From: Bacillota bacterium
GTDB lineage: Bacteria; Bacillota; Sulfobacillia; Fermentithermobacillales; Fermentithermobacillaceae
Direction of reading: 5' to 3'
Assembly (NCBI GenBank): GCA_012841065.1
Contig: DUVI01000007.1
Location: 1-59,028 of the forward strand
DNA: 59,028 nt
The translations under genes and the position numbers were made by a program. A model generated the notes under the pieces. That model saw nothing but the letters and a program-made list of their open reading frames with translations. It searched no databases and was not told where the DNA came from. The stretch's first letter is position 1, and every line of letters starts with the position of its first letter. Positions 1,917 through 31,905 of the stretch are shown here, piece by piece.

Positions 1917-2138
1917 TCAATGGGTAGGGACATCTTTGATCCCGTTGATTATCTGCTCCAACTTGGCTTCAAGTGCACCGGTAAGCCGGCCTAACACAGC
2001 AATTAACGCAACCACCACAACCGCCAGCAGTATTGCGTATTCGGCAATAGTGGCGCCACGCTCTTCCTTGAAAAACCCACTGAGCCAGTCTGCAGCTTGC
2101 TTTCTGAGAACACACGCTTTTGCGTACAACTCCAACAC
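1917..2138 (-). CDS. flp: Flp/Fap-type pilin subunit
   Basis: A 73-residue major pilin of the Tad system. Residues 24-34 read KEERGATIAEY, so cleavage after Gly28 would leave mature Ala29 with the invariant Glu at +5 and Tyr at +6. A 20-residue hydrophobic helix follows, then a short C-terminus. The 28-residue leader is longer than usual for Flp pilins. The GTG start has a purine-rich site GAGGGAGTGG just upstream. This is the only pilin gene in the cluster, and no prepilin peptidase gene accompanies it. Confidence 0.88.
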   Translation of the reverse strand: MLELYAKACVLRKQAADWLSGFFKEERGATIAEYAILLAVVVVALIAVLGRLTGALEAKLEQIINGIKDVPTH

Positions 2139-6615: not shown

Positions 6616-6948
6616 GGGTTTATGTCTTCTGGCCAGTGATTTCAGCAGACGACTACCTCCTTAGCCGTGGCCGTACCCGGCCATTGGGTTGACTGCGAAG
6701 GGCGCCGGTGGCGACTGTTGTTTTTGGCATTGCCGGAATGCCGAGTGGATGTCGAAAACTCCCTCCTTTCTCCGGCAACAATGGTACTGATGACCCGGCA
6801 CGGCCACTTACAAGTATTGCCAGGCAATTCCAGAATATAGCAGATTTCTCGGTTTGTCAATACTTTCCAGATTGTTTTCCATAAAAAGACACTGCCTCAA
6901 AAATATGATATATTCTTGGTGCCGGTGGCGAATCGGAGGTTGTGTTCC
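6616..6948. other. Intergenic region: tad leader and divergent control region
   Basis: About 330 bases without a convincing protein gene. On the minus strand it holds the tad promoter and an unexplained leader of about 180 bases with a second purine-rich site (AAAGGAGGGAG, about 6768-6778) that has no good start codon after it. On the plus strand it carries the Shine-Dalgarno CGGAGG (6934-6939) of the SLH gene. I could not match the leader to a known riboswitch. Confidence 0.5.
6832..6860 (-). promoter_or_regulatory. Sigma-A promoter of the tad operon
   Basis: On the minus strand a perfect -35 TTGACA (6855-6860) is followed by an extended -10, TGC then TATATT (6834-6839), with a 15-base spacer. 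The overlapping hexamer TATTCT (6832-6837) would give 17 bases. It lies about 180 bases upstream of cpaB. Confidence 0.6.
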
Positions 6949-29435: not shown

Positions 29436-29921
29436 CTAAACCGATCTCTGAAACTTACTCAGGAGTTTCCGTTCGACACTCGGAGGAACCAAGTCCCTGA
29501 CACAGCCGCCATACGACGCCACTTCTTTTACCAAGCTGGAGCTAAGGTAAAGATACTCTGACGATGTCATCATAAACAAAGTCTCAATCTCGGGAGCAAG
29601 TTTCTTGTTCATCAGAGCCATTTTGAACTCATAGTCGAAATCAGAAACTGCCCTCAGCCCTTTGACCAGCACCCTTATCCCTTTTTCTCTTGCGAAGTTT
29701 ACAAGAAGGCCCTGGGAAGAGGTCACTTCAACATTTGGTACATCCTTACATTCTTCCCTGATCATTACTACCCGCTCTTCGACGGTGAACAGCGGAGCTT
29801 TGGCCGGATTTTCGAATACAGCTACATACAGTTTGTCGAAACAACGGGAACTGCGTTTGATGATGTCCATATGACCGTTGGTTATTGGATCAAAACTGCC
29901 GGGATAAGCTGCGATTAACAA
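29436..29921 (-). CDS. coaD: Phosphopantetheine adenylyltransferase
   Basis: 161 residues from TTG 29921, which follows a G-rich ribosome site and gives the family N-terminus LIAAYPGSFDPITNGH. That segment carries the T/HxGH nucleotidyl-transferase motif (NGHMD). The second motif SSSLVKEVA and KGLRAVSDFDYE are present. It makes dephospho-CoA from phosphopantetheine. The neighbour rsmD, which usually precedes coaD, is missing, and a small RNA candidate lies there instead. Confidence 0.95.
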   Translation of the reverse strand: MLIAAYPGSFDPITNGHMDIIKRSSRCFDKLYVAVFENPAKAPLFTVEERVVMIREECKDVPNVEVTSSQGLLVNFAREKGIRVLVKGLRAVSDFDYEFKMALMNKKLAPEIETLFMMTSSEYLYLSSSLVKEVASYGGCVRDLVPPSVERKLLSKFQRSV

Positions 29922-29975
29922 GAAACAACCCCCCCTATCTTCGGGCAATATCATATGTCAAGTTTAGCCTCTAGT

Positions 29976-30005
29976 GTATAATTCGGAAATATTTCGTCCA
30001 TGTTA
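29976..30005 (+). promoter_or_regulatory. Forespore (sigma-G/F-type) promoter of the small RNA, overlapping a sigma-A-like -10
   Basis: GTATA (29976-29980) and CATGTTA (29999-30005), 18 bases apart, fit the sigma-G pattern. The same pattern occurs in front of the SASP gene (GCATA, 17 bases, CATAATA). Transcription would begin near 30011, exactly at the first predicted stem. An overlapping TATAAT (29977-29982) with ATGTCA 16 bases upstream could be a vegetative promoter instead. Confidence 0.55.
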
Positions 30006-30010
30006 CTAAC

Positions 30011-30107
30011 GAGAGTCAGGGTGCAGTCGAGAGATTGCCCCTTACAGGCTCTTCCTCCGGTTTCTCCTCTCCCAATGCCGCTTCAGGAAAGGAAGCGGCA
30101 TTTTTTT
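30011..30107 (+). ncRNA. csfG: Candidate sporulation small RNA (CsfG-like position)
   Basis: About 97 bases. Stem 1 pairs GAGAGTC (30011-30017) with GGCTCTT (30047-30053) and encloses a second stem (GGG-bulged T-GCA with TGCCCC at 30036-30041). A single-stranded C-rich stretch follows (CTTCCTCCGG, then TTTCTCCTCTCCC), which could pair with Shine-Dalgarno sequences. It ends in a strong terminator. There is no open frame or downstream plus-strand gene for a leader. B. subtilis has the conserved endospore-former RNA CsfG between ylbG and ylbH, just before coaD; this locus matches that place. Identity is inferred from synteny, promoter type and structure, not from sequence alignment. Confidence 0.5.
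30074..30107 (+). terminator. Intrinsic terminator of the small RNA
   Basis: AATGCCGCTTC (30074-30084) pairs perfectly with GAAGCGGCATT (30092-30102) and runs into seven Ts (30101-30107). The T-run lies only on the plus strand, so the terminated transcript is plus-strand. Confidence 0.92.
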
Positions 30108-30120
30108 GCGCTCACCCTGG

Positions 30121-30561
30121 TTACGCCGGCTCCCTGAGCAGCAAATAAGCTCCGATTATGAACACTACCACTCCCACCGCTTTGGTTATGTCTATATTTG
30201 CCTTCTGCCCTGTGACTCCGAAATAATCAAGAGCCAGGGCCGTGAGGATCTGCACCGTGAGTATCGCAGTGGTGGCCGGAGCAGCACCTACTCTTGCGAT
30301 ACTGGCAAGCACTCCCCATACGATGATAACACTTAAAGGGCCGCCAAGAAAACTAAACCATGGTGCAGAACCGATGTTTCTTATGTTTCCGTGGGTGATC
30401 CCTGACGCAAGCACGATTCCAAGGAGCGCTGTAGCTATTACGTGTACCACAAACGTAGCCTCAATTTCGCCTATCTTCTCACCAAGTATTGAGTTGAGTG
30501 CTCCCTGAACTGCCATAGAACCTCCTGCAAGGCCCGCTATAATCAAAGGCCAGATGTTCAA
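30121..30561 (-). CDS. DMT-superfamily membrane protein (YdcZ/DUF606)
   Basis: 146 residues with five hydrophobic helices in the small-transporter DUF606 pattern: GLAGGSMAVQGALNSILGEK at the start and GVVVFIIGAYLLL at the end. These proteins are half-size relatives of drug/metabolite transporters and may work as dimers. The substrate is unknown. It stands alone between the small RNA terminator and gpr, on the opposite strand from both. Confidence 0.82.
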   Translation of the reverse strand: MNIWPLIIAGLAGGSMAVQGALNSILGEKIGEIEATFVVHVIATALLGIVLASGITHGNIRNIGSAPWFSFLGGPLSVIIVWGVLASIARVGAAPATTAILTVQILTALALDYFGVTGQKANIDITKAVGVVVFIIGAYLLLREPA

Positions 30562-30660
30562 ACCGCCACCTCCAACCGGAAGTTATACATAAGCCCGCTT
30601 ATCCTTTGGGTAGTATAGCACCAGAACGCTCAATAAAATCTTGGCAGACAGGTGATGATA

Positions 30661-31596
30661 ATGCGTTGGTCAAACTGGGACAGAACCGATCTGGCCGTAG
30701 AACGTGCAGCTATGGTAAAAGAACGCACAGGCGAAATCCCCGGGCTGGAAAGCTCACACGAACAGATAAACGGGATAAGCATTACCAGGGTGCAGGTAAC
30801 TAATCCGTATGCAGCAAGCCAGGTAGGCAAGCCACCGGGCCGTTACTTCACCTTGGAATGCCCTGAACTCAAATACAGGAACAGAACCCTCCTCAAGAAC
30901 GTAGCCCAGATAATTGCCAAAGAGTTGGCAGTGTTGGCAGAACTGCCAAGGAGCAATGATGTGCTTGTGGTTGGATTGGGGAACTGGCAGGCGACCCCTG
31001 ACGCCCTTGGACCCAGGGTAGTGTCTCAACTGATGATTACGCGGCATATCAGGGAATATATCTCTCAGGACCTGGGCCAACGCTTGTATCCTGTAGCCGC
31101 TATATCGCCTGGCGTATTAGGGATAACAGGGATGGAAACTGCGGATATAGTCAGAGGTATTGTTGACCAGGTCAAGCCTGAACTGGTGATCACAGTGGAC
31201 GCCCTCGCTGCCAGATCACCCTCAAGGTTGTTCTCGACAATTCAAATTGCAGATACAGGTATCCAACCTGGTTCCGGGGTGGGCAACAAGCGCCCGGGGC
31301 TTAACCTTGAAAGCCTTGGTGTGCCTGTAATAGCCGTTGGAGTACCCACAGTCGTATCGGGTGCTTCAATAGCTATGGACGTGCTTGAGGACTATTTTTC
31401 GCGGTTCAACCCACACGCCAGGCCGACTCTGGATTCTGTGCATGACTTTTTATGCCAGGACCTGCTCGACTTGATGGTTACCCACAAAGACGTTGATATG
31501 CAAATAATGGAAATATCGAAGCTGTTGGCAAGCGCGATTAACAAGGCCACGCAACCGGCCATAACCGAAGATGAAATGCTCGATTACTTGCAGTAA
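30661..31596 (+). CDS. gpr: Spore germination protease GPR
   Basis: 311 residues from ATG 30661 (AGGTGAT upstream). GPR starts degradation of small acid-soluble spore proteins at germination. It is made as a zymogen in the forespore. The early region WDRTDLAVERAAM contains the area where autoprocessing occurs. Family segments VVGLGNWQATPDALGP, SPGVLGITGMETAD, VDALAARS and TDTGIQPGSGVGN-like ADTGIQPGSGVGNKR are intact. A SASP gene, its substrate class, is convergent 54 bases away. Confidence 0.95.
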   Translation: MRWSNWDRTDLAVERAAMVKERTGEIPGLESSHEQINGISITRVQVTNPYAASQVGKPPGRYFTLECPELKYRNRTLLKNVAQIIAKELAVLAELPRSNDVLVVGLGNWQATPDALGPRVVSQLMITRHIREYISQDLGQRLYPVAAISPGVLGITGMETADIVRGIVDQVKPELVITVDALAARSPSRLFSTIQIADTGIQPGSGVGNKRPGLNLESLGVPVIAVGVPTVVSGASIAMDVLEDYFSRFNPHARPTLDSVHDFLCQDLLDLMVTHKDVDMQIMEISKLLASAINKATQPAITEDEMLDYLQ

Positions 31597-31650: not shown

Positions 31651-31905
31651 TTACTGAAGCCTCTGTTGCTGTTGCTGCTGCATACCTGTGGGGAACCTTC
31701 CCTGAGCCAGGTTATGCTGAGCAAACTCAATCATCCGCCTTACCATGTGGCCACCAACTGCCCCACAAGTCCTGGATGGGATATCTCCCCAGTAATCACC
31801 AGGAGGCTGTATTCCCAATTCGTTGGCTACTTCGTTCCTAAAGGCATCCAACGCGGGACGGGCTTGCGGTACCACTGCAATGTTCCTACGCTGTCCTTGA
31901 CCCAT
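31651..31905 (-). CDS. Alpha/beta-type small acid-soluble spore protein
   Basis: 84 residues. The core ALDAFRNEVANELG, then GDYWGDIPSRTCGAVGGHM and VRRMIEFAQHNLA is the alpha/beta SASP pattern (family consensus GDY/WGxLxxRxCGxVGGxMVK). Such proteins coat spore DNA and protect it from UV and heat. The segment NEVANELG corresponds to the GPR cleavage region, with Val in place of the usual Ile/Phe. The C-terminus is Gln-rich (six Gln in a row). AAAGGAGGTGAT lies before the ATG, and a sigma-G promoter lies just upstream. Confidence 0.94.
   Translation of the reverse strand: MGQGQRRNIAVVPQARPALDAFRNEVANELGIQPPGDYWGDIPSRTCGAVGGHMVRRMIEFAQHNLAQGRFPTGMQQQQQQRLQ

Follow-up and report, generated by a model that had tools for sequence, protein, structure and literature searches.

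A predicted CsfG small RNA gene divergent from coaD in a member of the Fermentithermobacillaceae, with a core shared with Bacillus

The stretch of DNA analysed here, hereafter the window, is 59,028 nucleotides long, and the unit of interest occupies positions 29976-30107 of its plus strand, between two genes that are read in the opposite direction. On one side lies the divergent coaD (29436-29954, minus strand; TIGR01510, 207 bits), with a true start that is probably a TTG near 29921; on the other is a convergent gene for a YdcZ-like exporter (30121-30561, minus strand; PF04657). Sporulation genes follow, with gpr for the germination protease (30652-31596, plus strand; TIGR01441, 343 bits) and an alpha/beta-type SASP gene (31651-31905, minus strand, start at 31905; PF00269), and ylbJ (TIGR02871), fapR, and rpmF are also found around the unit. 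The first-pass annotation, made from the letters alone, had named coaD, ylbJ, and rpmF as neighbours and had stated that the unit holds no protein gene, and on both points it was right. No gene-length open reading frame was found in the transcript, where the plus-strand frames are of 45 and 37 amino acids only; the former begins at an ATG within the -10 box that most relatives lack, and the latter at a TTG.

The promoter had been described as GTATA, an 18-base spacer, and CATGTTA, and it reads exactly so: a -35 box of the sigma-F/G type at 29976-29980 and a -10 box at 29999-30005, both on the plus strand. The consensus forms of these boxes, GNATAA and CAYNNT[A/T], are the same in 13/13 members of the order, with the letters TG.ATAA and CA...T identical in the 13 homologues, while the spacer between the boxes varies. 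The strict sigma-F/G motif occurs six times in the window, including upstream of csfG and, at 31960-31932 on the minus strand, upstream of the SASP gene, where the same pattern had already been noted. A sigma-F/G-like motif lies 15-150 nt upstream of 106 of 132 homologues; a control taken downstream gave 9, and shuffled sequence would give ~7. SigG is encoded in the window's genome (470 bits, over the cut-off), and SpoIVA is there too. On these sequence grounds, control of the RNA by sigma-F/G is very probable. A sigma-A promoter at 29955-29982 was considered and rejected; its TATAAT is confined to the genus, whereas GNATAA and CAYNNT are found order-wide.

The predicted CsfG small RNA, ~97 nt, would run on the plus strand from a presumed start at 30011 to 30107, as judged from its fold, its homologues, and a match to the Rfam family RF00516. 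Its first seven bases, GAGAGUC (30011-30017), form the 5′ arm of a helix, P1, and pair with GGCUCUU at 30047-30053 (p ~0.92 in the partition function), enclosing a nested hairpin, P2 (30018-30042), in which AGGG-u-GCAGUC faces GAUUGC-CCCU. The last bases of the P1 3′ arm are the first two of the CsfG core, UUCCUCCGGUUUCUCCUCUCC, a mostly unpaired 21 nt at 30052-30072, of which the 16-nt CCGGUUUCUCCUCUCC (30057-30072) is the minimal phylum-wide part. An intrinsic terminator occupies 30074-30107, with an 11-bp stem (30074-30102) and seven Ts (30101-30107). The stem at 30011, the nested hairpin, and the seven-T terminator are thus all present as the first-pass annotation had them, and so is its C-rich unpaired stretch, with the correction that the core is now placed at 30052-30072; in the partition function of the predicted ensemble, C30054-C30073 is mostly unpaired. 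The interval 29976-30107 folds at -43.2 kcal/mol, compared with -31.4 +/- 3.5 for dinucleotide shuffles (z = -3.36), and 0/200 shuffles did as well.

Relatives preserve this architecture. A 141-bp segment is matched in 28 of 41 relatives, at 86-93% identity within the genus and nearby genera, and is far better conserved than the flanking sequence. When the whole unit was aligned for 13 homologues from two of the order's families, all 13 had an identical 21-nt core. The proposed structure leaves 95.5% of cells paired, both sides being altered in 15 cells, and the covariation score is 0.168 against 0.089 +/- 0.012 when shuffled; sliding the structure along the alignment lowers the paired share to 37-54%. 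Compensatory support comes from two helices, P2 (3 of its 8 pairs) and the terminator (two double-compensated pairs), and the terminator stem also has G-U variants in relatives. Covariation in the stems of relatives, which the first-pass annotation had proposed as a check, is therefore found for P2 and the terminator but not for P1, which is invariant in the 13 sequences and for that reason without such support. In genus g2, the predicted partner of GAGAG is instead the terminal CUCUC of the core (p 0.64 vs 0.07), and an exchange between this pairing and P1 is possible under the folding model.

On the plus strand of ten family members, the helices contain 31 G-U and 0 C-A pairs, 11 of the G-U being at pairs that vary, a pattern which identifies the plus strand as the RNA strand. 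The most deflationary account of the unit is that it is a mere terminator with chance hairpins belonging to another transcript, such as the antisense end of coaD or readthrough, and the sigma-A-like match that overlaps it upstream would suit such an account. Against it stand conservation above that of the flanks, the unit's own promoter boxes, the covariation, and homologues across the phylum, and we regard it as extremely improbable.

At the Rfam gathering threshold there are no matches anywhere in the window. In a relaxed search, the best model near the unit is RF00516, named "ylbH leader," which aligns over its full length to minus-strand positions 30110-30025; its 25.8 bits (E = 0.007 over 2 kb) fall below the gathering score of 50. 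The same model matches the 11 other homologues tested at the equivalent place, with 117 bits in Cytobacillus, 51 in Alicyclobacillus, and 26-35 in the rest. A northern analysis in B. subtilis found the ylbH-leader strand silent and its reverse complement to be the small RNA CsfG (PMC3574147), and because RF00516 models the antisense strand of CsfG, a minus-strand match denotes CsfG on the plus strand. The curated "ylbH leader" entry therefore models the wrong strand, and the G-U pattern and terminators seen here agree with that correction, so that the mislabelling can be confirmed from sequence alone.

Taken at its Rfam name and at the strand its model matches, the element would be a cis-regulatory leader of rsmD/coaD. 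This is very improbable, since the terminator T-run and the G-U pattern lie on the plus strand, since the B. subtilis northern saw the CsfG strand only (PMC3574147), and since the element does not depend on the company of the genes it is supposed to lead. In nearly all loci compared, csfG is divergent from rsmD-coaD-(ylbJ). Throughout the window's order rsmD lies away from the csfG locus and coaD adjoins the RNA, and families f10 and f16 separately show the same arrangement, so the element persists at loci that rsmD has vacated (f1 and f2, the window's family and its sister, and f10 and f16). In L144 and L145 the element is inverted relative to rsmD and directed toward it, and in families f7, f43, and f44 the core-bearing elements are away from coaD altogether. 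An RNA that persists without rsmD, inverted, or far from coaD is not an rsmD leader. The first-pass annotation had rsmD gone; it is indeed absent from the locus, but another contig of the window's genome carries a homologue (G000:C11:12658-13197) that scores over the family cut-off, and the gene has thus moved rather than been lost. Inversion or shift of csfG relative to rsmD-coaD, so that it reads toward them, is seen at L144, L145, and L057. One sister-family genome has an additional csfG copy, partial and decayed (L211; G016:C99 near 6895-6915), with the P2 hairpin and a core with one change, and without a terminator.

The core itself reaches well beyond the order. The CU-rich CUUCCUCCGGUUUCUCCUCUCC is exact at 30051-30072 and in loci of Bacillus, Brevibacillus, Alicyclobacillus, the Thermoactinomycetaceae, and Clostridia-like genomes, and the core of the window is letter for letter that of Bacillus. 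At least 118 contig stretches of one-per-species genomes contain TTCCTCCGGTTTCTCCTCTCC exactly, and the great majority of the listed carriers belong to the Bacillaceae, Brevibacillus, Alicyclobacillus, the Thermoactinomycetaceae, or Clostridia-like MAGs. The elements of f7, f43, and f44, several of them with a -10-like box and a terminator, keep only CCGGTTTCTCCTCTCC, which is why the minimal core is taken to be those 16 nt. One of the exact 21-mers lies in unrelated sequence, in a MAG labelled Acidobacteriota (L040), without promoter, terminator, or coaD/rsmD context, and is probably a chance occurrence.

CsfG is known as an RNA of Bacillus produced within the developing spore. With CsfG of B. 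subtilis, the window RNA shares the 21-nt core, the place divergent from (rsmD-)coaD, a promoter of the sigma-F/G type, a terminator hairpin 3′ of the core, and a sporulating host. It differs from Bacillus CsfG in that P1 (GAGAGUC/GGCUCUU) encloses P2, in that rsmD does not lie between the RNA and coaD, and in that, at ~97 nt, it has no hairpin exposing UUUCCCCAU in its loop, the arrangement found at Bacillus loci. Relatives in the class have an unpaired CCCUCCCCCAUA 5′ of the core, and from these the window RNA differs by the lack of the UCCCCCAU motif. The departure from the Bacillus structure thus follows from the missing first C-rich loop motif, which in the window's family and its sister family (f1 and f2) is replaced by P1/P2. 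Nor is the CCCC-loop hairpin universal in CsfG, as other core-bearing families are without it too.

The distribution of the RNA follows that of spore formation. In a class sample of 154 genomes, 58 carry the core (<=2 mismatches); SpoIVA accompanies it in 56, and the remaining two genomes are 81-85% complete. In a phylum sample of 299 genomes, the 16-mer was found in 121 and its reversed control in 0; RNA and SpoIVA occur together in 120, the RNA alone in 1, SpoIVA alone in 136, and neither in 42, with the SpoIVA-negative calls based partly on absence from the listed SpoIVA matches. The Fisher p is ~1e-9, a value that overstates independence because the genomes are related. The single exception in the phylum, G421, is 90% complete and has genus-mates that carry both RNA and SpoIVA. 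Neither RNA nor SpoIVA was found in genus g4, a member of the window's own family, and the same holds for g12, g56, and g59. In several lineages, then, the RNA and spore genes are missing together, which indicates that the CsfG-type RNA is confined to endospore formers and has been lost where sister lineages gave up sporulation. Since 136 of the 256 SpoIVA-positive genomes have no detectable core, the RNA is not required for sporulation.

The exact core, the RF00516 match, the divergence from coaD, the promoter, the terminator, the covariation, and the joint loss with SpoIVA all point the same way, and we consider it nearly certain that the unit at 29976-30107 is a homologue of CsfG, the identity proposed by the first-pass annotation, as a structurally modified member of a known family. 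That CsfG identity and forespore control together account for the unit is highly probable. The range of CsfG is thereby extended to an uncultured class of Bacillota.

As to how such an RNA might act, RNA polymerase carrying sigma-F and/or sigma-G would start near 30011 in the forespore, as the promoter predicts, and transcription would end at the T-run at 30107, yielding an RNA of ~97 nt in which a single-stranded pyrimidine stretch, UUCCUCCGGUUUCUCCUCUCCC, is flanked by P1/P2 on its 5′ side and by the terminator hairpin on its 3′ side. By pairing with purine-rich Shine-Dalgarno sequences in several mRNAs of the forespore, this stretch would keep ribosomes from loading, in the manner of the C-rich regions of RoxS/RsaE. 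C-rich region 3 of RoxS binds the ppnKB ribosome-binding site, blocking 30S binding, and CsfG has been named among the small RNAs with such regions (PMC4409812); published work on CsfG gives no target (PMC9147052, PMC8216469). RoxS/RsaE and FsrA resemble the window RNA in having a terminator hairpin and unpaired C-rich regions able to face a Shine-Dalgarno sequence, but they differ in sequence, locus, and regulators (ResD, Fur) and are not spore-specific, so that the likeness is one of mode of action alone. By this analogy, action of the core through Shine-Dalgarno pairing is the reading toward which we lean, with some reserve.

A screen of nine family genomes for the complement GGGAGAGGAGAAACC, allowing <=2 mismatches, gave no firm conserved mRNA target within that limited set. 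The sole site common to all five genus members proved to be the back strand of another C-rich hairpin rather than an mRNA leader, and was not found outside the genus; sites shared pairwise fall in coding starts, without wider conservation. A genus-wide hairpin with a C-rich loop, GGCGCGGUUUCUCUCCUCCCCCGGAAAUCGCGCC, was observed at L249-L253 (G000:C4 near 1998-2014, plus strand, and four congeners). It is preceded by a TGTCAACATAYTGTRTATCAG box that resembles a mother-cell (sigma-E/K) promoter, and it is possibly a second C-rich sporulation RNA.

The outcome of the target screen would also fit a CsfG in which the core binds a protein, either an RNA chaperone or another CU-binding protein, as sponge or scaffold. 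The invariant core length, 16-21 nt, is more than Shine-Dalgarno pairing seems to need, and these bases are unchanged across classes while flanks, hairpins, and the first C-rich motif vary; in addition, Hfq co-purifies with B. subtilis CsfG (PMC3574147). However, CsfG is lowered only modestly by loss of Hfq, no CsfG-binding protein is known, and the known C-rich small RNAs of Bacillota with similar motifs act via mRNA pairing (PMC4409812), which leaves the protein-binding core a plausible but clearly less probable reading. A partner in 16S rRNA is, by comparison, extremely unlikely. The 16S segment AAACCGGAGGAAG of many Bacillota is complementary over 13 nt to CUUCCUCCGGUUU of the core, and the exact complement is present in genomes such as G038 and G141-G143, but the window's genus and family read GATCCGGAGGAAG (GATCC) in their 16S rRNA while the RNA core keeps GGUUU. 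As a reason for core conservation, 16S pairing is thus refuted: the 16S varies where the RNA is constant.

Whichever partner applies, the comparison separates an unchangeable part of CsfG, the 16-21 nt, from the changeable first C-rich arm, hairpins, and rsmD neighbourhood, and so narrows both the sites for mutation and the search for a CsfG partner. A broader and tentative reading, which we think rather unlikely as a whole, is that CsfG is a 16-nt invariant element, CCGGUUUCUCCUCUCC, carried on interchangeable hairpins and serving one conserved forespore partner, which would be either a protein or ribosome-binding sites of a universal set, with csfG used also as a phage attachment site. If true, the element changes locus and can shed the first C-rich arm, as in the window, yet tracks sporulation phylum-wide because of that partner. 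That csfG may be an attachment site is raised by two IMG/VR phage contigs with the exact CsfG core, L139:5940-5960 (minus strand) and L140:1468-1488 (plus strand). In both, the core follows a tyrosine integrase gene by ~100 nt, in the attP place, with Phage_integrase in L140 and a CI-like repressor alongside in L139.
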